A stretch of DNA of 34,554 nucleotides from contig JAGVHR010000014.1 of the NCBI GenBank assembly GCA_020056455.1, positions 1-34,554 of the forward strand. The letters are read 5' to 3'. Within the stretch, counting starts at the first letter, position 1. The number at the start of each line of letters is the position of its first letter. Shown here piece by piece: positions 4,384-34,553 of this stretch. The DNA is from Thermodesulfovibrionales bacterium. GTDB lineage: Bacteria > Nitrospirota > Thermodesulfovibrionia > Thermodesulfovibrionales > UBA6898. Made by a program: the position numbers and the translations under genes. The notes below the pieces were generated by a model. That model worked only from the letters and a program-made list of their open reading frames with translations. It was not told the origin of the DNA and searched no databases.

Positions 4384-4384
4384 T

Positions 4385-7703: not shown

Positions 7704-7715
7704 TATTTCATATTG

Positions 7716-7751: not shown

Positions 7752-7776
7752 CCCCATACTTCATAGCAATTCAACT

Positions 7777-11092: not shown

Positions 11093-12051
11093 GGAATGGC
11101 CCTGCCGGGAGATTTATAAAACAGGTAACTATAATGGGTGTTGTCGGGAACATCAACAACAGCACGGATGGAATATCCTGCAGGTCCGCTGTTGCTGAAG
11201 CCTGCCGAGTCGATGGAATAATGGGTCGTTTCATCTGAGCTGATAAACGGTTCGGCGAGTGCAAACCCGCCGCCTGAAATAAGCTTTACATCATGAAGAG
11301 AAAAAGACGGTTTCAACTGACGTTCATTGATGATCATGTCGGCTATTTCCTCTGACAATCCCGGGATAGAGGCCAGTACATCTCTATGAGCTGTGCGAAC
11401 ATTTATTCCTGCCTCCTCCGTATGAATTGTCAGAAGATCGATTATCCCTTTTTTCTCCCCCCTGCCAAAGAGGATCTCCGCAGTCATTCCTTTAACAAGC
11501 AGGAGTTCCTCGATGGTATCAAAATCATCATTTCTGGCCTTATATGGAATAGGCAGTGACAGGTAAAAGTCGCTTTCTGCGCCATGCAGTCTGTGCGCGT
11601 CACTGTCACCGCTGTCTTTCCAGTCAAGCAGGGAGTCAACAATAGTATCAGCATCTTCCATGGTCAGGCCCCGTAATATGAGGAGATTCCTGAGTATTAT
11701 ACCAGATGCGTCCGACAACATGTTGATATTGATCTTGCCTGACTCCTCAGTAATGCTGACGATATAATGACCGTCTCCGAGGTTGTTTTTATAAGGTGTT
11801 CCATCGATTCTCCAGATGTCATCAGGATTTGACAGGCCTTTCAGGTTTCTGTAGAAAATCTCAAAAAGTCCTCTTTCCAGTCCGGCTTCGGCCAATTTTT
11901 TGCTTTGCGCTGCTTCTATGAAGGTCCGCGTCGAAACGGTCTCTATCCTGACCAGCGCTGAAAAAGAGAAAACGAGAACTGAAAGGGCCGCTATAGTCCA
12001 GAGCACCATGAGCAGAGCAATGCCTTTTTCCGCTATATTTTTTATATTCAA
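11089..12051 (-). CDS. gspK: General secretion pathway minor pseudopilin GspK
   Basis: KGIALLMVLWTIAALSVLVFSF N-term; GKININMLSDASGIILRNLLILRGLTMEDADTIVDSLLDWKDSGDSDAHRLHGAESDFY is GspK-like. Confidence 0.9.
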   Translation of the reverse strand: MNIKNIAEKGIALLMVLWTIAALSVLVFSFSALVRIETVSTRTFIEAAQSKKLAEAGLERGLFEIFYRNLKGLSNPDDIWRIDGTPYKNNLGDGHYIVSITEESGKININMLSDASGIILRNLLILRGLTMEDADTIVDSLLDWKDSGDSDAHRLHGAESDFYLSLPIPYKARNDDFDTIEELLLVKGMTAEILFGRGEKKGIIDLLTIHTEEAGINVRTAHRDVLASIPGLSEEIADMIINERQLKPSFSLHDVKLISGGGFALAEPFISSDETTHYSIDSAGFSNSGPAGYSIRAVVDVPDNTHYSYLFYKSPGRAIP

Positions 12052-12713
12052 TGCGCGGGCCCCCCGGGCGGTTGTATGACGTTAAGTTCGAATTGTCCCA
12101 TATTCGGGGAGGGTGCGCGAAGGGGAATAATGAGATCAAATGTCCTGATGCCCTTTTTCAGATGGAGCAGAATTTTTTCAGGACTAATTCCGCTATCCGG
12201 CAAGGTTTCAGACCATTTGCCTTTTTCATCTGTAGCGCCTTTATAAAAAAAACGGAAATAGATTTCGTCAAAGCCCTGCAAAAGACGTGTTTCCCTGGTC
12301 CCCTTCATCCAGGGGGTCTGTTCGGTAACAACGAGGTCCAGCAATCTTTCATCAGTGTCTGTTACGCGATACGTTGCCAATACATAGCCTTTTTTCCCTG
12401 ACCAAAGGGATATGTTGGTCGGAAACCTGAGAAAAGCTGAATTGCCGCTTATAGAGATCAATGTCCCTCCCTCTTCATTTGCTTCTTCCATAGGCGGCAT
12501 AAGCAGAAAAGCCGACTGTATCTGCGAGTCGATCAGTCCGAGAGTTGCTCTTGACTGTTCAAGGAAGACAATTTTCTTTTCCCCTTTTTCCACGGAGATA
12601 TGGGAGAGTCTCATTACACCTGCGATGATGGCGGCTATAATGCCGATCATCACCATGGAAATAAGCATTTCGAGAAGAGTAAACCCCTGCTGTGAAAATC
12701 GCGCTCTTGTCAC
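12048..12713 (-). CDS. gspJ: Prepilin-type N-terminal methylation protein, GspJ-like
   Basis: QQGFTLLEMLISMVMIGIIAAIIAGVM; operon position between gspI and gspK; 4-nt overlaps. Confidence 0.8.
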   Translation of the reverse strand: MTRARFSQQGFTLLEMLISMVMIGIIAAIIAGVMRLSHISVEKGEKKIVFLEQSRATLGLIDSQIQSAFLLMPPMEEANEEGGTLISISGNSAFLRFPTNISLWSGKKGYVLATYRVTDTDERLLDLVVTEQTPWMKGTRETRLLQGFDEIYFRFFYKGATDEKGKWSETLPDSGISPEKILLHLKKGIRTFDLIIPLRAPSPNMGQFELNVIQPPGGPAH

Positions 12714-13171
12714 GGTCGCCGGGCGTCAAGTTTTAGAGTTCTCAGCGTCATGGTTTTTTCTTTTGCTCCGGTGCGCCAGTGAATAGTCAGATCAATCTCA
12801 TTAATCCTTGCAGGCAGTCTTTCAGTGCGCTCGGGCATAAAAGAAGAGATGCCCTGTATCTGCTGATCCCCTGCGTTTAATTTGCGCAGTCTTTCAGAGC
12901 GATCGGGCATAAAAGGAGAGATTGAGCAGTCCAGCCGATATCCGTCTTCGGATATCGTTGTCCATTTTTTTTCAGAAAAATCCCCTCTGTCGATGATATT
13001 TCTCATCTCTATCTCTGCCCGTGCGAGCGCAGCGCTATAGTCTTCGGATACTGACAGAGCAATCAGGTTTGCAGAAAAAAGCTGAATGATGACCGCAAGG
13101 GCGATTCCTATGAGGGCCATGGCAGCCAGTACTTCAAGGAGCGAAAAGCCGGCTGATGAATCCTGCCTCAT
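12710..13171 (-). CDS. gspI: Prepilin-type N-terminal methylation protein, GspI-like
   Basis: SAGFSLLEVLAAMALIGIALAVIIQLFSANL; operon position; 4-nt overlaps. Confidence 0.8.
   Translation of the reverse strand: MRQDSSAGFSLLEVLAAMALIGIALAVIIQLFSANLIALSVSEDYSAALARAEIEMRNIIDRGDFSEKKWTTISEDGYRLDCSISPFMPDRSERLRKLNAGDQQIQGISSFMPERTERLPARINEIDLTIHWRTGAKEKTMTLRTLKLDARRP
12813..12922. repeat. In-frame direct repeat within gspI (38-nt units, 72-nt period)
   Basis: 12813-12850 GGCAGTCTTTCAGTGCGCTCGGGCATAAAAGAAGAGAT and 12885-12922 CGCAGTCTTTCAGAGCGATCGGGCATAAAAGGAGAGAT match at 34/38; encodes FMPDRSERL / FMPERTERL. Confidence 0.85.
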
Positions 13172-13647
13172 GATTTCGGCTTCTCCCTGTGGATCACTGC
13201 GCCGGAGACAGGATCAGTCTGGACCCTGACGTATTTTTTTTGTGTCGAAAAGACAACAGCGCCTCCTTCGATGCTTCCTATCGGATCGAATATGAAATAA
13301 TGCCTGCCGCTTTGGGTGTCACCATGAAGAATATCAGAAAAAACAATGGTGATACCGCCGGGAAAATACCTTGCCGGTCTTCCTTCAATCCAGTATGACC
13401 GGCTTTCAAGGTCTATGGTAACAATCTGAGCTTCGCCGGTTGTGCCTGCAAGCATACGGGCGTGTTTCAGAGTTGATGCGAGTTCCCTTGCTGCACCATC
13501 GATTTTGCCTGTAAGGAGTGACCCTGTCAGCGCCGTAACTCCGATACCTGCCATGGTGACGATAAGAAAAAGAACTACAATGATCTCTATCAGCGTGAAT
13601 CCTGAGGAACAAGGCGCGGCGTTTGATGGATCTGAGGGTCGTCTCAT
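13168..13647 (-). CDS. gspH: Prepilin-type N-terminal methylation protein, GspH-like
   Basis: SSGFTLIEIIVVLFLIVTMAGIGVTAL; GAARELASTLKHARMLAGTTGEAQIVTIDLESRSYWIEG resembles GspH/FimT. Confidence 0.75.
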   Translation of the reverse strand: MRRPSDPSNAAPCSSGFTLIEIIVVLFLIVTMAGIGVTALTGSLLTGKIDGAARELASTLKHARMLAGTTGEAQIVTIDLESRSYWIEGRPARYFPGGITIVFSDILHGDTQSGRHYFIFDPIGSIEGGAVVFSTQKKYVRVQTDPVSGAVIHREKPKS

Positions 13648-13656
13648 GAGGAGCTG

Positions 13657-14862
13657 CTAAAAAGGCAGATCGGTCATGCTGAATACCGCTGCAAGCATCG
13701 AGATGACGATAAAACCGATAACAACAGCCATTATGAGGATCATTGCAGGTTCAAGAAGCCCCAGAAACCTCTTGATCTCTGTACGCAATGCTTTTTCATA
13801 GGTCTGTGCAACCTTGAGAAGCATCACATCGAGCTGGCCGGTTTCTTCTCCAACCTTTATCATGGAAAGGGCAAGACGCGGGAAATTACCGGTTTCAGCA
13901 AGGGGGACTGCAATGCCCTTTCCTTCTCTGGCCCCTTTAAGCACCTTGTCGACAGAGGCTGCCATGATGCGGTTATTCATAACGTCCCTGGCGTTTGAAA
14001 GCGCCTGGAGGAGGGGGACTCCGCTTTTCAGGAGTGTGCCGAGGGTCCTGCTGAAGCGCGCTGTTTCGAGTTTGCGGATGATCTCTCCAGACATACGCAG
14101 TTTTGCAGAATCCCAGAAGCGGCCGCCTTCATCAGTGCGTATGTAAGTTCTGAATACGATGAAGACGACAGCTGCTGCAAGGACAATGACCCACCAGTAG
14201 GACTGGATCAAATCGCTGAACAGCAGGAGTATTTTTGCCGAAAAAGGAAGATTGCTGCCGAGTTCATCAAAGATGACGCTGAATTTAGGCAGAATAAAAG
14301 TCAGCAGAATAATGATCGATGCGCCTCCGGTAAACATAAGTATAGCCGGATAGATCATTGCCGAGATTACGCTCTCCCTTATTTCTTTTGAGGTTTCCAG
14401 AAATTCATTCAGTTTGTCCAGAACAATGTCGAGCACTCCTCCAGCCTCCCCGGCCCTGACCATATTAATATATATGCCGGAGAATTGCCCTGGGTGTTTT
14501 TGAAGAGCATCGGAAAAGGAACTGCCCTCCCTGATCGATTTCAGTATGGACTGGATGACGGCCTTTGTACCACTGTTTTCAGAGATCTCGGCAAGGATGT
14601 TCAAACCCCTGTCAAGGGGCAGGCCGGCCCCGAGAAGTGCTGAAAGTTCTGTTGTGAAGGTAAGTAGGTCAAGTTTGGAAGAGGTCCGCCTGAACAGGGA
14701 AATGCTGCGACTCCCTGTTCCGGTTTCGCCGGCGCTGATCCTGAGGGGAATGACCCCGGCTGATTTTAATTTCTCAAGAGCTGCCGCTTCATCCGCAGCC
14801 TCGATAACTCCTTCCGTAATGGCGCCCTCAAATGTTGAGGCCCGGTAGGAAAAAACAGGCAT
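13657..14862 (-). CDS. gspF: Type II secretion inner-membrane platform protein GspF
   Basis: MPVFSYRASTFEGAITEGVIEAADEAAALEKLKSAGVIPL, LTFTTELSALLGAGLPLDRGLNIL, VRAGEAGGVLDIVLDKLNEFLE, LEPAMILIMAVVIGFIVISMLAAVFSM. Confidence 0.94.
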   Translation of the reverse strand: MPVFSYRASTFEGAITEGVIEAADEAAALEKLKSAGVIPLRISAGETGTGSRSISLFRRTSSKLDLLTFTTELSALLGAGLPLDRGLNILAEISENSGTKAVIQSILKSIREGSSFSDALQKHPGQFSGIYINMVRAGEAGGVLDIVLDKLNEFLETSKEIRESVISAMIYPAILMFTGGASIIILLTFILPKFSVIFDELGSNLPFSAKILLLFSDLIQSYWWVIVLAAAVVFIVFRTYIRTDEGGRFWDSAKLRMSGEIIRKLETARFSRTLGTLLKSGVPLLQALSNARDVMNNRIMAASVDKVLKGAREGKGIAVPLAETGNFPRLALSMIKVGEETGQLDVMLLKVAQTYEKALRTEIKRFLGLLEPAMILIMAVVIGFIVISMLAAVFSMTDLPF

Positions 14863-16377
14863 CTAAACCTCCTGAGTGACCTTCAGCACTTCGGTCAGAG
14901 TTGTTATGCCTGCCTTGACTTTGTCCGCTCCGCTCTGAAGCAATGTCTTCATTCCATGAGCTATTGCAGATTCCCTGAGCTGGTTTGCATCAGATCCCCT
15001 GAGGATCAGCTTTCTTATCTCATCGTTCACGGTCATGAGTTCATACAGACCGGTCCTGCCGAAATAGCCGGTATGGGAACACTGTTCACAGCCCTTTCCT
15101 ATAAACAGCCTGGTGTCAGGGGCTATGCCGAGAAGGCTGAGTTCCTCTGAGTCGATCTCCGCTGGATCTTCAATTTTACATGCAGGGCAGATGGCGCGCA
15201 CGAGACGCTGGGCAAGGACCCCCCTGACGGTCGAGGAAAGAAGAAAACTTTCCACCCCCATCTCAAGAAGTCTTGTTATTGCGCTTGGCGCGTCATTCGT
15301 ATGCAATGTAGAAAAGACAAGATGGCCGGTCAGCGCGGACTGGATAGCTATTTCCGCTGTCTCAAGATCGCGGACCTCGCCGATCATGATGATATCAGGG
15401 TCCTGCCTCACGATATGTCTGAGGGTATTGGCAAAATTCAGTCCGATCTGGGGCTTTGTCTGTATCTGATTGATCCCCTTGATCTGATATTCAACAGGAT
15501 CTTCTACTGTTATGATCTTCCTGTCCGGCGAATTGATCTTGTCCAGAGCGCCGTACAGAGTTGTGGTCTTTCCGCTGCCGGTCGGTCCGGTCACGAGGAT
15601 GATGCCGTTAGGTTTCCTGATGAGCATGTTGAACTCAGTGAGTGTCTCACTGGGGAACCCAAGGAGGAGAAGGTCTATTGTAATGCCTTCTTTTCTCAGA
15701 ATTCTCATTACTATGCTCTCACCGTAAAGGACCGGAATGGTGGACACCCTCAGGTCAACCTCATGCTCCTGCACCTTCAGCTTTATCCTTCCGTCCTGCG
15801 GCAGCCGCCGTTCGGCAATATTCAGCTTTGCCATTATCTTGATCCTTGAAATGACGGCAGCCTGAAGCCCTTTGGGTGCTGTTTCGACATCCTTCAGGAC
15901 GCCGTCTATGCGGTATCGGATCTTGAGCTCGTCACTGTAGGGCTCCATATGGATATCGCTTGCCCTGGCCTCAATTGCCCTTGTGATAAGAAGATTCACC
16001 AGTTTTATGATAGGCGCCTCGGACGCAAGGTCTCTGAGATGACCTATATCCTCTTCATCATCTCCAAAGAATTCGAGGCCCTTATCGCCAATGTCTTCTA
16101 TTATTTTATTGATGTTCTGCTGCTCCTGGCCGTAGAACTTTGCTATATATTCATCAAGTATTTTGCTGTCGGCTGTACAGACCTGAATATCCGCAGCAGT
16201 GGCCACCCTGAGGGCATCAACCGTCAATGTATTAACCGGATCCGACATGGCGATTTTAAGGATATTGTTTTTTAACTCAAGAGGAACGATTCTGTTTTCT
16301 CTTATGAACCGTGAAGATACTCCGTTCATTATCAGCGGCATCTTGGGGAGATCTTCCTGTGTAATCTGCTGTTCCAT
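14863..16377 (-). CDS. gspE: Type II secretion assembly ATPase GspE
   Basis: Walker A GPTGSGKTTTLY, RQDPDIIMIGEVRDLETAEIAIQSALTGHLVFSTLHTNDA, zinc-binding CPAC...CEQC, SDIHMEP. Confidence 0.95.
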   Translation of the reverse strand: MEQQITQEDLPKMPLIMNGVSSRFIRENRIVPLELKNNILKIAMSDPVNTLTVDALRVATAADIQVCTADSKILDEYIAKFYGQEQQNINKIIEDIGDKGLEFFGDDEEDIGHLRDLASEAPIIKLVNLLITRAIEARASDIHMEPYSDELKIRYRIDGVLKDVETAPKGLQAAVISRIKIMAKLNIAERRLPQDGRIKLKVQEHEVDLRVSTIPVLYGESIVMRILRKEGITIDLLLLGFPSETLTEFNMLIRKPNGIILVTGPTGSGKTTTLYGALDKINSPDRKIITVEDPVEYQIKGINQIQTKPQIGLNFANTLRHIVRQDPDIIMIGEVRDLETAEIAIQSALTGHLVFSTLHTNDAPSAITRLLEMGVESFLLSSTVRGVLAQRLVRAICPACKIEDPAEIDSEELSLLGIAPDTRLFIGKGCEQCSHTGYFGRTGLYELMTVNDEIRKLILRGSDANQLRESAIAHGMKTLLQSGADKVKAGITTLTEVLKVTQEV

Positions 16378-22490: not shown

Positions 22491-22627
22491 AACAATAAGG
22501 TAGATTATGACCGCAGCATAAAACTCAGAAGTGAACAAAGGAGGTTCGAAAATTAGAAAAAAGACTGCAAAGTGTTGCCTGAGGTTCCGGCTGCATATCA
22601 GGATCGTCATTGAACGTAAGGTCTGAC

Positions 22628-24286
22628 ATGAACCGTACGATTCCAATAATCATTTTTTGCCTGCTGTTTACCGTATCCGCATCAGCCGGAGAACCTGCGC
22701 CTGCATGGCCTGCTCCAGTGGATGTCAGGGCTTACGGCGCAGTGGGTAACGGTGTTGCAGATGACACTGCGGCAATTCAGGCCGCAATTGACGCCACTAC
22801 GGGGACAGTCCTGTTTCCAAAGGGAACATACAGGACAACGGGGACGATTACCATTTCCACAAGCGGCGTTGTTCTATCCGGGGCCGGTTCCCGCTCTATA
22901 ATCAAGCATGTTGTTGATGGTGATGCTGTTGTGTTTTCTCCATCTGATCCGGCTGACCCGAATATTTTTATCAGCGGAAACGGTATTATTGATCTCACCA
23001 TAACTTCCGACGTTGCCAGAAACGGATCAGCGCTCAAGCTGGTGAAGGTTGATGGTTTTACTGCCCGCAACTTCCATGCGTCTTATCATAAGCACGGCCT
23101 GTATTTTAAAGGAGGAAGGGCCAGCCGTTTTACAGATTTCAGGTTGGGCTATTCAGGCAGTACGGGGCCGGAGGCTGATGCGTCCATGCTAAAGATTGAG
23201 GCTCAGGAGAAGGCCGGTGGTGGTTATACGCAGCCGTGGACTACTATTTTTAGTGATTTTGTGATCGGTGGGAATTTTACGGCGGGCGCAGCCATTGAAA
23301 TTAATGCCGCAGATGGTTTCCTTTTTTCCAATGCATATATTGGAGGCTCATACGAAAGTCTTGTGAAGATAAAAAATACTGCCAAAGGGGTTAATACTGT
23401 TGCGTTGTTTTTCGATAATATCTATTTTGACGGGATAGCTGCTGCAAACGGCACTATACACGGGATGAGTCTGGAAGAAGACGGCCTCGCTTTAACCACG
23501 ATCGGCAGGATATTGATCAGTAACAGCTTTTTCGGTAATTTCGGGAAAACCAATTCAAAAGGGATACGGATATTGGAGTCCGAAGTCACTGAGATTACAA
23601 TTACAGGCACACACTTCGCCAATATTAAAGATAATGCCATCGAAATCAGGAGCGCCGAGGCAAGAGTAAATCTTGCAGGCTGCATCTTCAGAGATGTTGC
23701 CACCGCTTCATCAGGCGGGTCAGGCGTGTCGGTGTCAGCAGCTGCAAGTATAAATATCAGCGCGAGCACCTTTGCAAGCATTGATTTTATGAACAACTCT
23801 GCTATTTTTTTCCAGGGCGCTATTGGGCAGGCTTCAGTATCAGGATGTACTTTTTCGAACAATACGAATGACATCTCCAATAGCGCGACATTTACAGGGG
23901 AATATAAACAAACAGGGAATACTACGGACAACGCAACAAAGATTCCGGACAGGACCGGTGCAACCTCAACAATCCAAACAGTTGCCGGCACAGATACAGG
24001 AGATGTCTCAGCAAGCGCCATTACCCTCTTGCCCACCTCTGATTATGTGCAGGTGACCTGCCACGATACGGATGGCGGCTGTGTCTTGGCTCTCAGCGAA
24101 ACAGGCATGGCAGCCGGCAGGGTCGTCGAGATTGAGTGCATGACCGCAAATATCACGACGATCCGGGACGCGGCAGGGGTGCAGGAGCTTGCCGGGCAGA
24201 AGGCCTTCAGGTGCGGCGCGCTTGATTTGATTTCGCTCAGGTATAACGGGTCACGCTGGGTGGAGCGCTGGAGAAAACAGAACTGA
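22628..24286 (+). CDS. Secreted right-handed beta-helix protein (pectate lyase 3 / GH28-like)
   Basis: Signal peptide MNRTIPIIIFCLLFTVSASAG; VDVRAYGAVGNGVADDTAAIQAAIDATTGTVLFPKGTYRTTGTITI is the pectate-lyase-3 N-terminal hallmark; beta-helix repeats follow. ATG 22628 preferred over TTG 22610. Confidence 0.85.
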   Translation: MNRTIPIIIFCLLFTVSASAGEPAPAWPAPVDVRAYGAVGNGVADDTAAIQAAIDATTGTVLFPKGTYRTTGTITISTSGVVLSGAGSRSIIKHVVDGDAVVFSPSDPADPNIFISGNGIIDLTITSDVARNGSALKLVKVDGFTARNFHASYHKHGLYFKGGRASRFTDFRLGYSGSTGPEADASMLKIEAQEKAGGGYTQPWTTIFSDFVIGGNFTAGAAIEINAADGFLFSNAYIGGSYESLVKIKNTAKGVNTVALFFDNIYFDGIAAANGTIHGMSLEEDGLALTTIGRILISNSFFGNFGKTNSKGIRILESEVTEITITGTHFANIKDNAIEIRSAEARVNLAGCIFRDVATASSGGSGVSVSAAASINISASTFASIDFMNNSAIFFQGAIGQASVSGCTFSNNTNDISNSATFTGEYKQTGNTTDNATKIPDRTGATSTIQTVAGTDTGDVSASAITLLPTSDYVQVTCHDTDGGCVLALSETGMAAGRVVEIECMTANITTIRDAAGVQELAGQKAFRCGALDLISLRYNGSRWVERWRKQN

Positions 24287-24300
24287 ACGATATAAGGAGT

Positions 24301-25287
24301 TCAGCGCCCGGGGTTCTGTCTGATGAAGTCCGTATAAGCTTTAAACAGACCGTTGCGCAGCGGAATCTTCGCCTTCCATCCCATGCTGTTAAGCCTGCTG
24401 ACATCCAGAAGTTTGCGTAACGTTCCATCGGGCTTTGAGCTGTCAAAAACAAGCCCCCCCTCGAAACCGACTACCTCCTTTACAAGCAGGGCCAGCTCGC
24501 GGATGGTGATATCCTCTCCCACCCCGATATTAACAAGAGGCGGTTCGAATCTGCCGGTCTTTGACTCGTCGCTTCCCAGAAGAGTCCGAAACCTGTCATC
24601 AGGGAGATTCATCAGAAAGACACAGGCTTCAGCCATTTCATCACTATATAAAAATTCCCTGCGTGGTGAGCCTGTGCCCCATATGACAACTTCGCGGTCT
24701 CCTCTTTGTCTGGCCTCGTGGAACTTACGGATGAGCGCCGGAATGACATGGGAATTACTGAGATCGTAATTATCTCCTGGACCATAGAGGTTTGTCGGCA
24801 TAACGGCCAGGTATTGCGTTTCATACTGACGGTTATAGCTCCAGCACATTTCAACACCTGCGATCTTGGCAAGCGCGTAAGGCCGGTTGGTCGGTTCAAG
24901 CGGACCGGAAAGAAGATACTCTTCCTTCATCGGTTGGGGAGCATGTCTGGGGTAGATGCAACTGGATCCCAGAAACAGAAGCCGCTTAACTCCAGCCCGG
25001 TACGCCTCGTGGATGACATTGGTCTGTATTGCGAGGTTGTTACGGATAAACTCCGCCGGGTAGGTGTCGTTGGCGAGGATGCCACCGACCATGGCTGCGG
25101 CCAAAAAAAGATAATCAGGTTTCTCTGTCTTGAAAAAAGCGCGGACAGCTGCCTGCTCGGTCAGGTCCAATTCTGTATGCGTGCGGGTGATGAGATCCGC
25201 ATATCCCAAAGTTTTAAGATTTCGCATCAAGGCCGAACCGACCAGCCCGCGGTGCCCGGCAATATAGATCCTCGATGATTTATCCAT
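24301..25287 (-). CDS. fcl: GDP-L-fucose synthase (GDP-4-keto-6-deoxymannose epimerase/reductase)
   Basis: [100 protein letters not shown]. Confidence 0.96.
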
Positions 25288-25341
25288 CAGAGTTCTCCAT
25301 AGCAGATATTTATTTCTTTATCCTGTGAGCAAAGCCCCGTA

Positions 25342-26427
25342 CTATTCATGATAGTCATAGGCGGAGTATCCATGATTTTTAACCAGTTCGTCCCGCTCGG
25401 CAGTCTTGAGGTCTTCCCTTACCATCTCAGCGACAAGTTCCCTGAAGCTGATCCTTGGCGTCCAACCAAGTCTCTCTTTCGCCTTGGTGGGATCGCCTAA
25501 CAGTGTTTCGACTTCGGTCGGACGAAAATAACGCGGATCGACCTTTACAATGACTTTGCCATCCCGGTCCTTTGCTGTTTCTTCTGTGCCGCTGCCTTGC
25601 CAGTCAAGCTTCATCCCAAGTTCTGCTGAGGCGGCATTGATAAAGTCACGTACACAATACTGCACCCCTGTAGCGATGACGTAGTCCTCAGGCTGCTCCT
25701 GTTGAAGCATAAGCCACTGCATTTCGACATAGTCCTTGGCGTGTCCCCAGTCTCTCAGGGCATCGAGGTTCCCGATGTACAGGCAATCCTGCAGACCGAG
25801 CTTGATGCGCGCCAGCGCCCTTGTGATTTTACGGGTGACAAAGGTCTCTCCCCGGACAGGTGATTCATGATTGAAAAGGATCCCGTTGCAGGCATACATG
25901 CCGTATGCCTCGCGGTAGTTTACTGTGATCCAGTAGCCGTAAAGCTTGGCAACGGCATAGGGGCTGCGAGGATAAAACGGCGTTGTTTCCTTCTGCGGGG
26001 TTTCCTGCACCAGGCCGTATAGCTCTGAGGTAGACGCCTGATAGAAGCGGGTTTTATTTGTGAGCCCTAAAATTCGGATTGCCTCCAGAATACGCAATGT
26101 CCCAAGTGCGTCCGCATTTGCAGTGTACTCCGGAGTCTCAAAGCTCACAGCCACATGGCTCTGAGCTGCCAGGTTGTAAATCTCGTCCGGCTGGACCTGT
26201 TGAATGATGCGGATAAGGTTGGTCGAGTCAGTGAGATCGCCGTAGTGCAGGACGAATCTCTGTTTTTTGACATGCGGGTCCTGATACAGGTGGTCGATCC
26301 TGTCGGTGTTAAAAAGAGAAGAGCGGCGTTTTACGCCGTGGACTATATAGCCTTTTTCCAGTAAAAGCTCTGCGAGATACGCGCCGTCCTGACCTGTTAT
26401 ACCTGTTATTAAAGCAGTTCTATCCAA
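25342..26427 (-). CDS. gmd: GDP-mannose 4,6-dehydratase
   Basis: [117 protein letters not shown]. Confidence 0.97.
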
Positions 26428-26453
26428 TGTTTAACCCTCCTGTTAGACCATAT

Positions 26454-27479
26454 TTATTGACAAAGAGACTGAAATTCGGAAACCACTTCAGCGACCACGC
26501 GTTTCCGCTCCTGCACATAGGCGGATGGGTTGGAGAAAAGCTCAGTCAGCCGCGCCTGCGCCTGGCAATATAGTTCGAGAAAATCGTTGTCAGGCTCGAA
26601 TGAATTTATTCTATCAACAGCCTCTCTGACTGAAAGACCGTACAAATTAATAAAAGAGCTCTGTGGCACAAGTCGCTTCACGCTATGCCGCGGGCCGGCA
26701 AAGTATAAGGGGATTGCCAACACAGCAAAAGCATCGAAAATCTTTTCTGTAATGTATTGGCAATGATGTGTGTTTTCGAGCGCCGAGACAATAAACGACC
26801 TGCGATCGAGTGTGGCCAGCTTATCCAGATGCCAGTCAGGCAACAGTTGACGCTTCAATGAAGCTGTCCATTTCTGGCCTACCCGTACAACTCCCTCCCC
26901 ACGCACCTTTTTTGCTATAAGGGTGCGGTATCTGCACAGCCCGGCAATATCCTGCTCCGGGAAGGCTATGTCGAACCTAGCTGCGACACGGGCTTCGGCA
27001 TAAAATGCAGCCCGTATCGGGGCCCTGGCCCAGAGCCTTTTGAGTTCAGAGGATTTGCATGCCCTGTGTCTGGAGAAGAGATATGAATACCTGGCAAAAT
27101 AGTCGTCACCTGTTGTCACAAAGTAAGGGAACTTTTCAAAATCATATATCTTTGTAGTGCAGTGGTTCAAGACATGGTAAGAGAACCTTTGATCGCCTAC
27201 ACTCAGGTCTGCCTTTTTTGAAAATACGTCTCCGCTCCACACAGTGTCCCAAAGAGGTTCTTCAGAGAGGACTACCAGCCTGATTCCGGGTTTTACAGAA
27301 CAAATACGCCGGACCTCCTCAGCATCTTTTTCAATATTTTTAGAAACGCCGAAAACCAGAAAATCCGCGTCCTCAGGTCTCTCTGCATATTCGAAGTTTT
27401 TCCGGAACAGCTTTCTGTATTCCGGGTAAGCAAACGGCGTTCGCTTGACATGCTCTCCAAAGAGATAAATCTTCTTCAC
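26454..27479 (-). CDS. GT10-like alpha-1,3-fucosyltransferase family protein
   Basis: FIVSALENTHHCQYITEKIFDAFAVLAIPLYFAGP matches the conserved GT10 FucT motif; adjacent to gmd/fcl. Confidence 0.78.
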   Translation of the reverse strand: MKKIYLFGEHVKRTPFAYPEYRKLFRKNFEYAERPEDADFLVFGVSKNIEKDAEEVRRICSVKPGIRLVVLSEEPLWDTVWSGDVFSKKADLSVGDQRFSYHVLNHCTTKIYDFEKFPYFVTTGDDYFARYSYLFSRHRACKSSELKRLWARAPIRAAFYAEARVAARFDIAFPEQDIAGLCRYRTLIAKKVRGEGVVRVGQKWTASLKRQLLPDWHLDKLATLDRRSFIVSALENTHHCQYITEKIFDAFAVLAIPLYFAGPRHSVKRLVPQSSFINLYGLSVREAVDRINSFEPDNDFLELYCQAQARLTELFSNPSAYVQERKRVVAEVVSEFQSLCQ

Positions 27480-30400
27480 AAGACAGGTCCCAGAACAACT
27501 TTTTTAGCTTCAAGGGCCTTAATCATTGCCTTTGAATATTTGCCGCCGCTGAAGGTCATCGCCCGCTTGTACGCGGTGCGAAAGGCTTTGTTTTCTTTGT
27601 AGCGGGTCAAAAATTCAGAGGGATCAGTCAGTAAGCGACTGCTGCAGCCAAGAATGAACACGTCAACTACCCCAGCCTCTGTGCCCTTTCCCTGATTTAT
27701 CCTGGCAGCCATGTCAAATAGTCTGCCATATGAAAAGACAGGCCGCGCCATGGGCACATCAGCAGCTTCAGCAGCCAATGAGAGAAAAAGCTTCTGAATA
27801 TCGTAAATAAAACAGTCCGGCCCATAGAGCATCCGGAGTTGCCGTATGGCATGCCGCTTTCTCTCAATCAGCGCCTTGTCGCGGGCAAGCTCTTCCAGCC
27901 GCTCAGGCAGGGCCTGGATGTCTTCCAGTCGCTCAGCGCACGAAACAGTCGCTTCTTCCCATAGCGCAGCGCTGCCGGGCGGGAGATAAGAGTCGGCCAA
28001 TACAACCGGAATTGACCCGCACCCAAGCGCTTCCCACAGGCGCACCGAATTCGGTCCCGGGCCGGAAGGGCACAACGAGAAGATGCTTTCTTCCAGAATC
28101 TCCTGCAATTTCAGAGGCGCAGATTTATCTGTGAACTCCTGTGCGCTATCCGCACTGGCCATGACTTTGTTCAACTGTTGATGATTACGTGTCAAAACGA
28201 TACCGCGTTTGTCTCCGGCAATGCTGTCGATAATCATCTTGGGGGTTTCAGTCAGACAGGTTCCCGTAGATACTGCCTCAACAAAGGAAAAGAGATATTT
28301 CCTGTCTGTATCACCGTAGGCAGAGCAATCTGAGGTCGGCACCGCAGCGAGCGGAAACGGCAATATCTTAATGTCTTTGTGTTCGGGAAAATAATCCTGT
28401 CCCTTAACAGCATGCGCCCAGAAAACATGAGTAATGCCGGTCTCCGCAAAAATATGCTGATATTTCAGCATATGGATATGCTGGCAAACAGTGATAACGA
28501 ACTTATATCCCTTGAGCTGAAGTCTTGCGTTTTCAAGAGCTTTCATTAAACTGCTGCCTGTCAGCTTTTTTGAATTCAACTGTTTAATAAGCGTGGCCCA
28601 GGGAAATCCGAAATACATTGCCCCCGGCGTTCCGGGCAGTAATTTGACGGCCTGCGAGAAGGCCTGCTTTTCGGTAATAGCAGGAGGCTGCTGCCATTCA
28701 GCGTCATAGGCAAGGATGGAGCGCAGTTGTTTCATGCGCTGTTTGTCGCCTGCCGGATTGGGATCGGCTGAATGGGATTTGGGCAGCGGAGCAGATTCCG
28801 GTTTCATTGTCCTGCCTTTTGAAAATCGGTTTGTAACGCCCTTTTTTTCTATGACCGTCTTTTCTCTAGGTCGGGCCGCGCAGACCACATTTGCCTGTAG
28901 CGCATCCCTCTGGACATACAGTCGCTGAAACGCATTGTCCCGCTTTTCCATAGACAGAGCGGCTTCGACTTCAGCGTTATACTCATCCCGCATTGTTATG
29001 GAAAGCTGACCGTCCCTTTTGCGGAATGCGCCCAAAGGTTTTCCAGACTGATAGTATTCGGCATGGAGAGCGAACTCTCGCCACAAGGCCCAGTCTCCGG
29101 CCAGTTTATAGCTCTGCAAGACATGCATAGCCTTTAGCCACAGGCTTTTTTTGAAGAACATGCCTTCCTGCTGGAGATGACGCCAGTGGAAGTCGCGGCC
29201 GTCGCACAGACCTTCGCGGATGACTGCCGAAGGCGTGAGATTGGGACCGCCTCCAATCTTATTGCCGTCCCGGTCAATAATAAAGGCGGGGCTGCCTATC
29301 CATTCGATTTCAGGATGATCAGCTGCTATTGTTGTGATAGTTGCCAGGGCATCAGGAAGAAGAATATCGTCTCCATTTATCCAGGTCATGAAATCAGTCA
29401 ACGCCATATTCATAATGCCAAATCCCTTTAAGATGGCATTATATACTCCCTGATCTGCCTTGCTGGACCACGTAAAGCTGACTCCACGGCACTGCACATG
29501 AGGATTAGGCTTTGAAAGCTCCTTTTCCCAATGCCTCAACCTGGCAACTGTCCCATCGGCTGATCCCCCGTCCTGGATATGGTAATTGATGGAAAAATCG
29601 CCTGCCTGACTGACGACGCTCTGAATGGTTCTGTCTATAGTGTCAACAGCATTCAGGCAAGGGGTGACAATAGACAAGACTCCTGCCGCATTTCTTGGGT
29701 TTTCGGATGGATCTGCTGCTTTATTTGAGCTGTGAGGTAACTTAAAAATAGATAATTCAGCCGGATCAACATTGAAGAGATCAGGAGCATCGATCAAAGG
29801 AATCTCTGCTGTTTTACGAAATATTTCATCGAGCAAGGATAGTGAGGGATGCATATTATCCGTATGCGTATTTGATAATATTTTGTCGATATAATTATCA
29901 GATGAATTGAGACTTCTATAAATTTTTCCTGCGGAAACAGCTGCTTTTTTATAAGATGGGAAATCATCTATAAGCTTCCGAAGGGCTTCAATATAGCTAT
30001 CGATATTTGAACCGGTCAGGCCATTGCCGGTTGTTATCAGCGATGATGGGAAAGTATTTTCTGTAGTCAGTATGACTTTGCCTGTAGTCAAGGCTTCTAC
30101 GGCGATGCCCGACCCCCGGATCTGATAGCGCTGCCGGTCATATAACAGCAAAATGATGTCAGATGAGATTATCAGCTGCGAATAATCTACAGAAGACAAG
30201 GCTGAATCATAAAGTTTCACATAATCTGTCGGATATTGGCGCAATTCATCAAGAGCCTTTAGAATATTTGGCGTATAACCTACAAACTGGGGTGTGGCTT
30301 GTATATTAAAACATATCCTGTTGGAATGGCCGTGACTATCAAAAAGTTGCCGGACCAGCTGAGGGAGATGAAGGAATCCTTTTTCCTCTCTTGCTGTCCC

Positions 30401-31030
30401 CGGATAAAATATAGTGATCTTTCCGGATGTCTTGTTTCCGTTGCGGTCGGCATGCCACATTGGCGGCGGAAGTTCCAGAGGCAGAACACTACTGTTGAAT
30501 GCAGCGCTGAAATATTCAGCCAACGGTCTTGTCTCCGCATATAGTTTGATTCTATTTGATTGCTTTATCAGGGCTTTTAATGAATCGGTTATTTTATCAA
30601 AATCAACACTCCTCGCATGCGGCATGACTTCACGGTCGTACGGTGTGCATAGGTGAAAATATGGAAGAAGAGCAGGATCAATGGTTGAGAAGATATGCGC
30701 TATAGCAGCATAGGTAAAACCGTCAGCTGTATGAAATAAAATATGATCTTCCGGAGCACATCCAATCTGCCTGATACCATTCAGGATTTCTGCTGCAAAT
30801 TCTAAATGGTATGATGAGTTATCCTTGAATTTAAACCTTTCATACATCGAGTAAGTAAAGGCCTTATACACGCGGATGGATTCGGAATCAACAGCGTCGG
30901 ATTTCTTATTGGCAAGCCACGCGATATGAATATTTTTTGCTTTTGCACCATTGGATATATTAACGGCAAGCTCATAATGATGGCCCTGTGTTGTGAATAG
31001 CGACGGATCTGCAATTACTAATTTTCTCAT
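27476..31030 (-). CDS. 1184-aa multidomain glycosyltransferase (N-terminal GT-B-like, central GT2, C-terminal exostosin/GT47-like)
   Basis: GT-B-like region (KITIFYPGTAREEKGFLHLPQLVRQL...LLLYDRQRYQIRGSGIAVEALTTGKVILTT); GT2 region (VLSIVTPCLNAVDTIDRTIQSVVSQAG...QDGGSADGTVARLR...WINGDDILLPDAL); exostosin-like region (SIFSLCPSGPGPNSVRLWEALGCGSIPVVLADSYLPP). Confidence 0.8.
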   Translation of the reverse strand: MRKLVIADPSLFTTQGHHYELAVNISNGAKAKNIHIAWLANKKSDAVDSESIRVYKAFTYSMYERFKFKDNSSYHLEFAAEILNGIRQIGCAPEDHILFHTADGFTYAAIAHIFSTIDPALLPYFHLCTPYDREVMPHARSVDFDKITDSLKALIKQSNRIKLYAETRPLAEYFSAAFNSSVLPLELPPPMWHADRNGNKTSGKITIFYPGTAREEKGFLHLPQLVRQLFDSHGHSNRICFNIQATPQFVGYTPNILKALDELRQYPTDYVKLYDSALSSVDYSQLIISSDIILLLYDRQRYQIRGSGIAVEALTTGKVILTTENTFPSSLITTGNGLTGSNIDSYIEALRKLIDDFPSYKKAAVSAGKIYRSLNSSDNYIDKILSNTHTDNMHPSLSLLDEIFRKTAEIPLIDAPDLFNVDPAELSIFKLPHSSNKAADPSENPRNAAGVLSIVTPCLNAVDTIDRTIQSVVSQAGDFSINYHIQDGGSADGTVARLRHWEKELSKPNPHVQCRGVSFTWSSKADQGVYNAILKGFGIMNMALTDFMTWINGDDILLPDALATITTIAADHPEIEWIGSPAFIIDRDGNKIGGGPNLTPSAVIREGLCDGRDFHWRHLQQEGMFFKKSLWLKAMHVLQSYKLAGDWALWREFALHAEYYQSGKPLGAFRKRDGQLSITMRDEYNAEVEAALSMEKRDNAFQRLYVQRDALQANVVCAARPREKTVIEKKGVTNRFSKGRTMKPESAPLPKSHSADPNPAGDKQRMKQLRSILAYDAEWQQPPAITEKQAFSQAVKLLPGTPGAMYFGFPWATLIKQLNSKKLTGSSLMKALENARLQLKGYKFVITVCQHIHMLKYQHIFAETGITHVFWAHAVKGQDYFPEHKDIKILPFPLAAVPTSDCSAYGDTDRKYLFSFVEAVSTGTCLTETPKMIIDSIAGDKRGIVLTRNHQQLNKVMASADSAQEFTDKSAPLKLQEILEESIFSLCPSGPGPNSVRLWEALGCGSIPVVLADSYLPPGSAALWEEATVSCAERLEDIQALPERLEELARDKALIERKRHAIRQLRMLYGPDCFIYDIQKLFLSLAAEAADVPMARPVFSYGRLFDMAARINQGKGTEAGVVDVFILGCSSRLLTDPSEFLTRYKENKAFRTAYKRAMTFSGGKYSKAMIKALEAKKVVLGPVL

Positions 31031-31848
31031 ACGTGAGCATATTCTTCTTTATCAAAAAAGTTCCACACCTCAACAGGTTCGATCATATTAAAAGGCGGGT
31101 TTCTGTACCTGTCGCCGCTAAAATGCGTTGATTCCGGACCCAGGCCAAAATTATAAATGGTTCTTCTGGATGTTCGGCGATGCTTATACCCATACAAGGC
31201 AGAAAGCAGACAAAGAGTCTCATCCCAGGCAAAAAAATTCTTTAAAGTGGAGGATGGCTGTCTGCCTGGAGTGACCTCTATGCGGTCGAGTATCTCAGGG
31301 GTAAGCGCCTTATTGATAAACTTGAGATAATTCTCCTCAGTCAACGAATAAACCTGTATCAGAGGTTTTAGAATTGTACGCAGCTTTTTGCTCGTTGTAG
31401 CCCAACCCCATCCCTGAAACCGTCCGAATTTTGTCTCGTCCTCACCAGGGACATAGAAGGGGTGTCCATAAACAGAGAAAATATCCGGTTCTGATTCAAT
31501 GGCCTTAAGGTCATCCCTGAAAATTCTGACAGCATTCTGAGTAGGGAAACAGTCATCTTCCAATACCAGAATATGATCAGCTTCTTTGGAAGTTTCGTAG
31601 AGAGCCTGAAGTATAATCTTTCGAAAACCAAAATTGCCTCTGTGTTTTACAATACGGCGGACCCCAAATTGCTTTGCAATTTCATATGTCTTGTCGGTCT
31701 TTTTCCTCAACGTGGGTGAACCCTGATCGCCGTCGATCCATACGTCTGTAAACTCAAGAGCTTCCTGACGTCTTAAGCTTTCCAGAACAATTTGTAGAAA
31801 ATCAGACCGTGTATGAGAAAATACAAGAATCCTGAATTTACTGCTCAT
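31027..31848 (-). CDS. GT-A-like glycosyltransferase
   Basis: FRILVFSHTRSDFLQIVLESLRRQ...DVWIDGDQGSP...HILVLEDDCFPTQNAVRIFRDDL (DxD-like EDDC); GRFQGWGWATTSKKL. 4-nt overlap with the 1184-aa gene. Confidence 0.72.
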   Translation of the reverse strand: MSSKFRILVFSHTRSDFLQIVLESLRRQEALEFTDVWIDGDQGSPTLRKKTDKTYEIAKQFGVRRIVKHRGNFGFRKIILQALYETSKEADHILVLEDDCFPTQNAVRIFRDDLKAIESEPDIFSVYGHPFYVPGEDETKFGRFQGWGWATTSKKLRTILKPLIQVYSLTEENYLKFINKALTPEILDRIEVTPGRQPSSTLKNFFAWDETLCLLSALYGYKHRRTSRRTIYNFGLGPESTHFSGDRYRNPPFNMIEPVEVWNFFDKEEYAHV

Positions 31849-31917
31849 GCTGAATATGACCTCCTGAACAAATATAACGGTTTCGCAGCAGATAACATCT
31901 GAGCCTCATCTGCAAGG

Positions 31918-33123
31918 CTAAATAGAGTTTTTTGAACCAATACTGTCAACTTCCATGTCATCGCACCAGCATGAAGTGCAGATTATTCTGCTCTCATCGC
32001 AGCGATGCTTATATTTTCCCGCGACCTTCAGGACTTCGCTCATTAACCCATTTTCCAGCTTTGTGGGGTTAAGCCCCAGGCTGAGGAATTTTTCGTTTTT
32101 CACCAGGAGATCGTTTTTCGGCGCTTCTTTTCGCGGATTTTTGTAATAGCGAATTTCCGCTCCGGTGGCCTGAGACACGAGTTCAGCCAGGTACTTCACG
32201 GAATGGGTCTCCGTGGCCTGGTTGAAGATTGCCACTTTTGACCCGGCATCCGGCGGATTGTCTATGGCCAGCCGTACGCATCTGACAGTATCCCGAATAT
32301 GGATGAAGGCCCTGGTCTGTCCGCCGGTGCCGTGTACTGTAAGCGGGTGATTCACAACAGCCTGCATGAGAAACCTGTTTAGAACTGTACCGTAATCCCC
32401 GTCATAATCAAAGCGGTTGATCAAAATTTCATCAAGGTCGGTCTCGTCTGTAGTCGTCCCCCAGACAACCCCCTGGTGCAGATCTGTAACCCTCAGCCCG
32501 TCGTTTTTATTGTAGAAGTAGAACATAAGGGCGTCCTGGGTCTTGGTCATGTGGTAGATGCTCCCAGGGCTGGCAGGATAGAGAATATCCAGTTCTTTCT
32601 GACCCTGATCGGTTTCTACAAGGACCTTCAGATATCCTTCGGGTATTTGCAGCCCGGCTGTCTGATAGCCATAGACTCCCATGGTCCCAAGGTGTACCAC
32701 ATGAACATCAAGCTTTGATTCAACAATAGCTGCTAAAAGATTGTTGGTGGCATTGAGATTGTTGTCAACCGTATATCGTTTATGGTAAGACGACTTCATT
32801 GAATATGGCGCGGCACGCTGTTCCGCGAAATGGACAACTGCATCCGGTTCGAATTCCCTGATCAGGGTGAGAAGGCGATGATAGTTTTTGGCGATATCAA
32901 AATTGTAGAAAGGTATCTTTTTTCCGGTCAATTCCTCCCAGCGCTTGATTCTTTTGAATATGCTGGAGATCGGAGTGAGAGAGTCACATCCCAGTTCAAT
33001 ATCTATCTTCCTTCTGGAGAGATTGTCTACGATTACCACCTCATAACCCTGCCTGGACAGGAAAAGAGCTGTGGGCCAGCCGCAAAAGCCGTCTCCGCCG
33101 AATATGATTATTTTCTTGTTCAT
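31918..33123 (-). CDS. sqdB: UDP-sulfoquinovose synthase-like NAD-dependent epimerase (SQD1/SqdB/Agl3 family)
   Basis: GGDGFCGWPTALFLSRQGYEVVIVDNLSRRKIDIELGCDSLTPISSI; VVHFAEQRAAPYSMK; LGTMGVYGY; SIYHMTKTQDA; HQGVVWGTTTDETDLDEILINRFDYDGDYGTVLNRFLMQAVVNHPLTVHGTGGQTRAFIHIRDTV: very close to plant SQD1 motifs from memory. Confidence 0.88.
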   Translation of the reverse strand: MNKKIIIFGGDGFCGWPTALFLSRQGYEVVIVDNLSRRKIDIELGCDSLTPISSIFKRIKRWEELTGKKIPFYNFDIAKNYHRLLTLIREFEPDAVVHFAEQRAAPYSMKSSYHKRYTVDNNLNATNNLLAAIVESKLDVHVVHLGTMGVYGYQTAGLQIPEGYLKVLVETDQGQKELDILYPASPGSIYHMTKTQDALMFYFYNKNDGLRVTDLHQGVVWGTTTDETDLDEILINRFDYDGDYGTVLNRFLMQAVVNHPLTVHGTGGQTRAFIHIRDTVRCVRLAIDNPPDAGSKVAIFNQATETHSVKYLAELVSQATGAEIRYYKNPRKEAPKNDLLVKNEKFLSLGLNPTKLENGLMSEVLKVAGKYKHRCDESRIICTSCWCDDMEVDSIGSKNSI

Positions 33124-33156
33124 ATGATTTTCTCCTATTGATTCAATATGTTAAGG

Positions 33157-33193
33157 TGAACAGGTCTCCTGACTATTAATCAGAGTCTGTTCA
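33157..33193 (-). other. Inverted repeat / hairpin between the sulfotransferase and sqdB
   Basis: TGAACAG (33157-33163) pairs with CTGTTCA (33187-33193), with inner CTC.TGA/TCAGAG pairing and loop CTATTAA; no clear T-tract. Confidence 0.4.
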
Positions 33194-33204
33194 TATTACA
33201 GTAG

Positions 33205-34152
33205 TTACTTTTTATAGCACAGACGAGCAACAAGTTCAATATATGAGTCACATTTTTCAGCATTATTAATAAATTCCTCATTGGCTTCCCTTCTGGGCCG
33301 CAGTTCAATTGTGGCCCCTTTCCTGCCGCTGTCGCCTGAAAAATGAAATGTATCAAAGGTGTCAATAAAGGTTTCAGAGTAATTGAAACCAAAGACCCGG
33401 CATATTTCAACCATAGTAGCTGCCGGGGCACTGACAAAGTCTTCATACCGGAAAACAGGAACATTTTCATATGCATCGAGGAAGGCGTGATAGCGGCGGC
33501 AATATTCGTCAAAAGTGTTAGGCTTGAAATGTTGCCATCCAAGTTTTTCCAATGATAAGAAACTGTCGATCGGCTCCCGAACAGTGACAATTGAAATCGT
33601 TTGAAAACGACTGCTGACCATGGAAAGCATCGTCGGCCTGCGGGCCACTTCGTTTCCCGTAAGAAATTGACTATGGCTATGGTCCCGCAGAAGAAGCCGC
33701 TTCCCAATTGAGCCAAATTCATTACGCACAAGATTCAAATTCTCAAGGAAAAGCCTAACCAGCAGGTCATCAGACACTTTCTGATTTCCCTGCCGCAATA
33801 AAGAAGGCATATCTGTAGGTGTAAACGACGGTTTATCGGCCTTGAATGTCATGGTGCTCAGCGGATCAACTTCATTGAGCGCCATAACATTGGGCATCGC
33901 AGCCAGGCACTTAGTGATCAGAGTGCCGCCTGTGCAGGACAGGTGATGGATAGTCCGAATCGGCTCGAGGGCGTGCGCTGTGTTTTGCCTGCAAAGTTCA
34001 ATGCATTGTTCAAACAAACTGGGTTGAATGGCGCTCGCCCTTGCCGGCAAGGCATTGCAGGTCCTGTCAGAGGCAAGCAATTCAAGCGCGTCATCAAGAA
34101 CTTCAGCAAGCTGCCTAAGCTCCGGCAGCGCGGCAAGCTTTCGCACGTCCAT
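33205..34152 (-). CDS. Sulfotransferase-family protein
   Basis: RTIHHLSCTGGTLITKCLAAMPNVMALNEVDP (5'-PSB-like loop), SIVTVREPIDSFLSLEKLGW (3'-PB-like motif), VFRYEDFVSAPAATMVEICRVFGF. Confidence 0.8.
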   Translation of the reverse strand: MDVRKLAALPELRQLAEVLDDALELLASDRTCNALPARASAIQPSLFEQCIELCRQNTAHALEPIRTIHHLSCTGGTLITKCLAAMPNVMALNEVDPLSTMTFKADKPSFTPTDMPSLLRQGNQKVSDDLLVRLFLENLNLVRNEFGSIGKRLLLRDHSHSQFLTGNEVARRPTMLSMVSSRFQTISIVTVREPIDSFLSLEKLGWQHFKPNTFDEYCRRYHAFLDAYENVPVFRYEDFVSAPAATMVEICRVFGFNYSETFIDTFDTFHFSGDSGRKGATIELRPRREANEEFINNAEKCDSYIELVARLCYKK

Positions 34153-34553
34153 CAGGTTCGCTTCGCTTTTTTTGTTAAACGTTGGGCAGGGCTACGCCGC
34201 TTCAGAGGGGTTATTGTCTGCCTTTTTGCAGGCAATGCCTGGTGTTCCCTAAGCTGATGAAAATACTGAGCAGCCGACTGGAGGCGCTCTTCCAATCTAC
34301 TGAGCAGGTGGCGCTGTTGCTCTTGCGCAGCCATCGCCTCCTTATATCGCTGCTGTAGGTCCTGCAGGTCTGATTCACGCAAAATATGCAGCTTTGTAGA
34401 TAGATTTGCGGTTTGACGAGCCTGAAGCAGCTCAGTCGTGAGCAGCTCGATCCTGGCCTGACGTTCATCAGAAAGTTTAGCGAGCCCAGCTCTGGCCTTA
34501 TTGGCCTCTTCAAGCTGAGACAGGCGATTCGCCGCAAGTTTAGCCTGTTCGTC
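34152..34553 (-). CDS. Coiled-coil protein, C-terminal fragment (continues beyond right edge)
   Basis: Open frame from the edge: DEQAKLAANRLSQLEEANKARAGLAKLSDERQARIELLTTELLQARQTANLSTKLHILRESDLQDLQQRYKEAMAAQEQQRHLLSRLEERLQSAAQYFHQLREHQ...KKAKRT*. The listed 34152-34382 ORF is only its 3' part (TTG start). Confidence 0.7.
   Translation of the reverse strand, partial: DEQAKLAANRLSQLEEANKARAGLAKLSDERQARIELLTTELLQARQTANLSTKLHILRESDLQDLQQRYKEAMAAQEQQRHLLSRLEERLQSAAQYFHQLREHQALPAKRQTITPLKRRSPAQRLTKKAKRT

Follow-up and report, generated by a model that had tools for sequence, protein, structure and literature searches.

What kind of molecule does a bacterium build when genes for GDP-L-fucose, for UDP-sulfoquinovose and for a sulfotransferase stand side by side? 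The question is raised by contig JAGVHR010000014.1 (C203 in our numbering) of a Thermodesulfovibrionales draft genome (GCA_020056455.1; 2.59 Mb in 263 contigs, 92% complete). The window that we analysed is this entire contig of 34,554 bases. Protein comparison agrees with a place in Nitrospirota without proving it: stretches of a Nitrospirae draft genome gave 58 reciprocal best hits (median identity 47%), and a deltaproteobacterial one gave 17 (median 40%). The minus strand of the window carries, at 24301-34152, seven adjacent genes: those for Fcl, Gmd, a GT10 fucosyltransferase-like protein and an 1184-aa protein with three glycosyltransferase modules, then those for a small glycosyltransferase, for SqdB and for a sulfotransferase. 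An earlier sequence-only reading had proposed that they make a surface glycan carrying fucose, C-sulfonate and O-sulfate. Gene calls, profiles and motifs bore out every gene that it named, and the predicted capacity for GDP-fucose, UDP-sulfoquinovose and sulfate transfer is supported; that one glycan receives all three, that it is a polymer and that it lies at the surface, we infer. We conclude, with a probability of roughly 0.6, that these genes form an operon for the synthesis of an O-sulfated glycan containing L-fucose and sulfoquinovose.

Layout of the locus

The layout of the run is operon-like, because two pairs of genes overlap by 4 nt each and a 1-nt TGATG overlap joins the stop codon of a coiled-coil gene to the start of the sulfotransferase gene. 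Elsewhere the spacing is 26-81 nt, and the largest gaps, of 69 and 81 nt, flank sqdB; RNA folding of the 69-nt gap before sqdB gave no signal (z +0.9). The run had been described as confined to 24301-34152, and this needed correction: the 3' end of a coiled-coil gene, recognised by its heptad pattern and cut by the contig end, follows at 34152-34553 on the same strand, and the locus seems to carry on in contig C113. The final 117 bases of the window match the end of C113 at 97% identity, and both ends lie within a coiled-coil gene with repeat-like sequence. Judging from this sequence match, the contigs are very probably neighbours, with an imprecise junction. No end overlap was found between the window and C230 or C39. 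Reading in the direction of the window genes, C113 encodes a 589-aa GT2 protein and a 457-aa coiled-coil protein, and it also holds the start of the second coiled-coil gene, the one interrupted by the contig break; the locus is bounded there by asd on the opposite strand. The coiled-coil genes of the window and of C113 (locus L158, 3175-5024) share near-identical internal sequence at the contig break, which suggests an internal repeat.

The predicted UDP-sulfoquinovose synthase

The best-supported part of the cluster is SqdB (401 aa; 31918-33123, minus strand). It aligns over its full length with the Arabidopsis SQD1 of the PDB (residues 3-386 of 401, 1e-102) and is 62% identical to Sinorhizobium meliloti SqdB over 97% of the length. 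The SDR active site is present, with its Thr and Y-x3-K and the motifs HFAEQR, GTMGVYG and SIYHMTK, as are equivalents of the active-site residues His95, Arg101 and Met145 known from mutants of archaeal Agl3 (PMC4388408).

A scan of 84,980 genomes returned at least 556 relatives of this SqdB in many phyla, of which the best 80 are 63-72% identical to it. In a tree of 106 rows (the window and 105 relatives), the window protein belongs to a supported group (95/98). Its members also include a copy from a genome of the same family (G008), a Nitrospirae metagenome-assembled genome (MAG), Desulfovibrio relatives, three gammaproteobacterial MAGs and one archaeal bin, and the Arabidopsis type lies at a clear distance from this group. 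The archaeal row (L074; Candidatus Pacearchaeota bin, JAFCDK010000029.1) has a bacterial-type SqdB that groups with a Desulfohalobiaceae copy, and reflects either transfer or mis-binning.

All rows of the clade but three, which lie outside the pattern that we used, have Val at the position of Agl3 Glu147. We considered whether Val instead of Glu in the GTMGxYG loop marks a non-sulfonating enzyme and rejected this, since S. meliloti SqdB has the same Val and the same GTMGVYGY motif. Its operon runs sqdB, GT8-like gene, reductase-like gene, the last two of which we take to be sqdD and sqdC, and this order fits the known sqdBDC operon. We grouped the neighbours of SqdB loci by homology, as clustering of longest open reading frames could not be relied on where GC content is high. 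Five loci of the same clade carry, directly downstream of sqdB, a GT4 gene that is presumably SqdX-like. A gene for CysH, a sulfite-releasing enzyme, adjoins same-clade SqdBs in nine loci (profile-confirmed for one). The cyanobacteria Leptothoe, Moorena and Lyngbya have the window type of SqdB only, and would be expected to make the sulfolipid sulfoquinovosyl diacylglycerol (SQDG). Given the identity to S. meliloti SqdB and its operon, the SqdX- and CysH-linked members of the clade, and the cyanobacteria with this type alone, the window protein very likely synthesises UDP-sulfoquinovose, as the label of an SQD1-like synthase had implied.

GDP-fucose synthesis and glycosyltransferases

The GDP-L-fucose pathway assigned to gmd and fcl is backed by motifs and profiles. 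Gmd (GDP-mannose 4,6-dehydratase, 361 aa; 25342-26427, minus strand) scores 601 bits against TIGR01472 (cut-off 415) and matches PF16363. The adjacent gene encodes the GDP-L-fucose synthase Fcl (328 aa; 24301-25287, minus strand; PF01370), which keeps its epimerase and reductase residues in the motifs GSSC (Ser/Cys), YALAK (Y-x3-K) and SHVIPAL. The GT10 fucosyltransferase-like protein (341 aa; 26454-27479, minus strand) reaches 42 bits against PF00852 (cut-off 23.9), matches PDB FucT chains (FUT9 and bacterial FucT) at 3e-4 to 6e-4, and has the donor-binding motif EN..H..YITEK in the form ENTHHCQYITEK at 235. Among the SqdB loci compared, only the window has a GT10 gene.

The 1184-aa protein (27476-31030, minus strand; PF00535 36 bits, PF03016 53 bits) joins three modules: GT4-like (about 1-430), GT2 (about 450-690) and exostosin/GT47-like (about 880-1035). 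The small enzyme encoded next to it has a GT-A fold (273 aa; 31027-31848, minus strand) and scores 22.6 bits against PF00535 (cut-off 23.3); its AlphaFold model has a predicted local distance difference test score (pLDDT) of 68, with POMGnT1 and hyaluronan synthase as best Foldseek matches. We regard it as a candidate sulfoquinovosyltransferase.

The sulfotransferase-like protein and the coiled-coil proteins

The Sulfotransfer_3-like protein (315 aa; 33205-34152, minus strand) has the 3' phosphate-binding motif R192EPIDSFLS. The leading Foldseek matches of its AlphaFold model in the PDB are sulfotransferases (E 2e-5 to 1e-3), and so the model favours the fold of the type that depends on 3'-phosphoadenosine 5'-phosphosulfate (PAPS), in agreement with the earlier assignment. 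The best homologues among the 177 genomes of the order are 29-32% identical to it (32% for that in G152), and viral contigs held no relative. From motif and model together, sulfotransferase activity is probable.

The coiled-coil proteins, one of which shows translational coupling to the sulfotransferase, probably serve to arrange the enzymes or to fix the length of the chain. One specific form of this idea is that the sulfotransferase acts as a chain terminator on a coiled-coil ruler, so that sulfate would cap and size a sulfoquinovose- and fucose-containing polysaccharide. The idea comes from the layout of cap, coiled coil and glycosyltransferase in the rulers of ABC-exported O-antigens (PMC11231755), a layout that is visible from the genes alone as a translational overlap in the window and as a fusion in the related locus L076, described below. 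The ATPase of L076 has 249 aa, which leaves no room for a cap-reading carbohydrate-binding domain, and the open-licence literature that we searched describes no sulfate cap. We consider a terminator role doubtful.

Related loci in other genomes

A search for the same combination in other genomes, as the sequence-only reading had advised, found an independent equivalent. The closest parallel, locus L076 on an alphaproteobacterial MAG contig, has every element of the set except GT10: SqdB, CysH, Gmd, Fcl, a Sulfotransfer_2 gene, an ABC exporter and homologues of three window glycosyltransferase modules. Over 431 aa, the N-terminal module of the 1184-aa protein shares 28% identity with a GT4 that has a gene of its own in L076, and the middle module resembles the GT2 gene that neighbours that GT4. 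At 4060-6315 (minus strand), L076 encodes a 751-aa fusion of a sulfotransferase, a coiled coil and, in its C-terminal part, a copy of the small window glycosyltransferase (53% identity). Because the three functions share one protein in L076, the separate neighbours in the window correspond to a single protein there. The fusion is a natural hint that sulfotransferase, coiled coil and glycosyltransferase act together.

In the nearest relatives (G008, L038, L039 and L041), SqdB lies inside polysaccharide clusters. The SqdB of contig C85 of G008 is 70% identical to that of the window, and its cluster holds gmd, fcl, manC, manB, glycosyltransferases, an EpsC/WbaP-like initiating transferase and a Wzy-like gene. 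SqdB is accompanied in L039 and L041 by a profile-confirmed sulfotransferase together with Wzx- and Wzy-like genes (read from sequence), and in L038 by a profile-confirmed sulfotransferase and a polymerase-like gene. Overall, a PF13469 sulfotransferase occurs in six SqdB loci out of 50, where 1.4 would be expected at genome-average density (272 such genes in 50 genomes with window-type SqdB; Poisson P about 0.003), an enrichment that falls short of proving a specific SqdB-sulfotransferase partnership, because glycan clusters attract sulfotransferases generally. Comparing SqdB and the sulfotransferase with families of unrelated substrate, which the sequence-only reading had held up as a way to overturn it, left the interpretation in place.

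Separately, five loci of order-level relatives (L004-L008, in G032, G052, G038, G058 and G049) have an SqdB of the Arabidopsis type (Glu motif) in glycan clusters, with other sugar-nucleotide genes adjoining. They offer further, independent evidence that glycans of bacteria may contain sulfoquinovose.

Proposed pathway

If the run makes such a glycan, ManC (contig C156) would supply GDP-mannose, which Gmd and Fcl would convert to GDP-L-fucose, and SqdB would form UDP-sulfoquinovose from UDP-glucose and sulfite. The chain would be assembled in the cytoplasm by the GT2 protein of C113, the small GT-A enzyme, the three modules of the 1184-aa protein and GT10, with fucose added by GT10 and sulfoquinovose by one of the other glycosyltransferases. 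The sulfotransferase would then move sulfate from PAPS, and for export the product would depend on a Wzx flippase or ABC exporter whose genes lie elsewhere. The gene content, the families, the operon layout and the recurrence of the set can be read directly from the DNA; the order of the sugars, the position of the sulfate and the export route are our proposal.

The genome elsewhere encodes a Wzx-like protein (C82) and, as read from sequence, a KpsM/KpsT-like ABC exporter with GlfT2-like transferases (C6). The scanned proteins of the window lack a flippase, a polymerase and a PAPS-synthesis gene, as previously stated; for PAPS this absence is local, as adenosine 5'-phosphosulfate (APS) kinase and CysQ are encoded on C39. 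An APS-kinase-like gene beside a Sulfotransfer_1 gene on C230 was dropped as a PAPS source: its product is closer to PRK05541 than to apsK, it lies among genes matching a phosphoramidate (MeOPN-like) pathway, and the C39 genes are the better source. In its own right, the C230 gene set (L028, 1-8161) resembles the Campylobacter O-methyl-phosphoramidate pathway, with the PRK05541-type protein, a methyltransferase, a PRK05849 protein (984 bits, cut-off 501), a gamma-glutamyl-CDP-amidate hydrolase-like protein (170 bits, cut-off 250) and a nucleotidyltransferase, and the Sulfotransfer_1 gene that it adjoins is truncated. The set may stand for another unusual way in which this genome decorates a glycan.

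Weighing the alternatives

Several observations weigh against an O-sulfated glycan with sulfoquinovose and fucose. Three proteins score below profile cut-offs: Fcl has 477 bits against NF047922 (cut-off 500), SqdB has 350 bits against the NF041015 equivalog cut-off of 575, which is a naming threshold and not a biochemical feature, and the sulfotransferase has 25 bits against PF13469 (cut-off 27). For the second, its clade and the identity that it shares with the S. meliloti protein lead us to keep the name SqdB, and we label the third sulfotransferase-like and divergent because of its score. Its P-loop is CTGGTL, not the usual R-S-G-T (RSGTT); its model is of low confidence (pLDDT 62) and was partly built on an alignment containing other sulfotransferases; and the gene is not conserved, with a match in 3 of the order's 176 other genomes (29% identity at best). 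G008 has sqdB, gmd and fcl without a sulfotransferase in the 40 kb scanned. No clear CysH was found in the source genome, where the sole PF01507 match is weak and partial (25.5 bits, in a 514-aa frame). The scanned genes of the window and C113 include no polymerase, flippase, exporter or initiating transferase; in particular, following the locus rightward along C113 up to asd, as had been suggested, did not yield wzx, wzy or an ABC exporter.

These observations leave room for other explanations. The locus could have two unrelated products: the membrane sulfolipid SQDG, fed by SqdB, and a fucosylated glycan free of sulfoquinovose, to which gmd, fcl, GT10 and the remaining glycosyltransferases would contribute. 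To our knowledge, all genetically proven bacterial SqdBs serve SQDG. In Rhodobacter sphaeroides, for example, the deltasqdB strain is without SQDG (PMC11346425). The SqdX-like genes of the five same-clade loci and the wide gaps on either side of the window sqdB would also suit a lipid role. Yet SqdX was not found in the source genome (the best matches are generic GT4s at 26%), which makes the SqdX route to sulfolipid unlikely; no SqdD/SqdC-like pair stands beside sqdB, no search for these two elsewhere in the genome having been made; and its neighbours are instead the sulfotransferase and glycosyltransferases. With the nearest SqdB relatives in polysaccharide clusters as well, we find a separate sulfolipid product improbable. 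We are still more sceptical that the SqdB-like protein makes some other C6-modified UDP-sugar, such as a 5,6-ene or the adduct of a different nucleophile, and hence no sulfonate. In Agl3, the Ala mutant of Glu147, the residue that Val replaces in this clade, has about 12% activity (PMC4388408), which would favour such a change; the S. meliloti enzyme has the same Val motif in an sqdBDC-like operon, and the cyanobacteria named above would be expected to make SQDG with this type alone.

A sulfonated, fucosylated product could also be an oligosaccharide attached to a pilin or secreted protein rather than a polysaccharide. This would account for a locus without polymerase or exporter on a contig that also carries type IV pilus and type II secretion genes (2765-16377), and archaeal surface-protein N-glycans do carry sulfoquinovose (PMC4388408, PMC2948927). 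We recognised no oligosaccharyltransferase or flagellin/pilin glycosylation gene in the window, however, and the related sets include an ABC exporter (L076) or place SqdB with polymerase- or flippase-like genes (G008, L039, L041), so that protein glycosylation seems rather unlikely. Finally, the sulfotransferase-like protein might be inactive or act outside the glycan, leaving a product with fucose and sulfoquinovose only. The score below cut-off, the altered P-loop and the absence of the gene from nearly all relatives, including the surroundings of the G008 cluster, are what this predicts, while the translational overlap with the coiled-coil gene, the fusion to a small-glycosyltransferase homologue in L076 and the leading fold matches speak for a working enzyme of the cluster. 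An unsulfated product is possible, and on balance we do not favour it over an O-sulfated glycan with fucose and sulfoquinovose.

Comparison with known systems

The sequence-only reading knew of no described bacterial polymer with this combination, and we likewise found no described bacterial product with fucose, sulfoquinovose and sulfate, nor any bacterial polymer with sulfoquinovose, in a search limited to open-licence papers, with most subscription papers outside it; this is absence of evidence, and similar gene sets recur in other bacteria. Described glycans with sulfoquinovose are the archaeal N-glycans. In the Sulfolobus acidocaldarius system of Agl3 (PMC4388408, PMC2948927), as in our proposal, UDP-sulfoquinovose goes to a glycan and not to a lipid, but the product is a protein N-glycan, the enzyme has the Glu-type motif, and the accessible text mentions no fucose or sulfotransferase genes. 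The Sinorhizobium/Rhodobacter sqdBDC sulfolipid operon shares the SqdB family, with GTMGVYGY and Y-x3-K; the window differs in having no adjacent SqdD, SqdC or SqdX and in placing sqdB amid glycosyltransferases, gmd, fcl and a sulfotransferase.

Sulfated bacterial polysaccharides are known from Synechocystis (PMC8205485) and from marine bacteria (PMC11641403, PMC11766843). The synechan (xss) cluster of Synechocystis 6803 (PMC8205485) resembles our locus as a bacterial polysaccharide locus with many glycosyltransferases and sulfotransferases. Unlike our locus, it has Wzx/Wzy, with no mention of sqdB, and synechan consists of rhamnose, mannose, galactose, glucose and sulfate. The sulfated capsule cluster of Vibrio sp. 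KMM 8419 (PMC11641403) also combines sulfotransferases, ABC export and PAPS genes, but there the PAPS genes lie in the cluster, alongside UDP-glucose and rhamnose synthesis, and the abstract mentions no sulfoquinovose or GDP-fucose genes. WbdD-type terminators on coiled-coil rulers (PMC3482155, PMC11231755) have a layout of catalytic cap, coiled coil and glycosyltransferase that resembles the one seen within a single protein in L076 and across neighbouring genes in the window; their caps are methyl, methyl-phosphate or 3-deoxy-D-manno-oct-2-ulosonic acid (Kdo), a sulfotransferase cap is not mentioned, and the L076 ATPase is too short for their usual carbohydrate-binding domain.

Other genes in the window

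A gene for a secreted-looking, right-handed beta-helix protein (22610-24286, plus strand; Pect-lyase_RHGA_epim, 51 bits) runs towards fcl on the other strand, with 14 bases between the ends of the two genes; its product could act on polysaccharide. The pilus and secretion genes form two sets: PilM-PilN-PilO-PilP-secretin at 2765-7703 (plus strand), and type II secretion system (T2SS) M/K-like, prepilin-like, T2SSF and T2SSE genes at 8974-16377 (minus strand). Defence-system profiles gave no match to the four cluster proteins compared with them.

Implications

Sulfoquinovose is mostly regarded as the head group of a lipid, and the breakdown of sulfolipid as the way in which it is turned over. 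Were it a glycan component in many bacteria that do not photosynthesise, part of the environmental sulfonate would be derived from polysaccharide. UDP-sulfoquinovose-dependent glycosyltransferases beyond the sulfolipid synthases and the archaeal one would then still be there to be found, and the small glycosyltransferase shared by the window and L076 is a first candidate to assay as a sulfoquinovosyltransferase. C-sulfonate and O-sulfate together on bacterial glycans would, if our reading is true, constitute a new class of highly acidic polymer.

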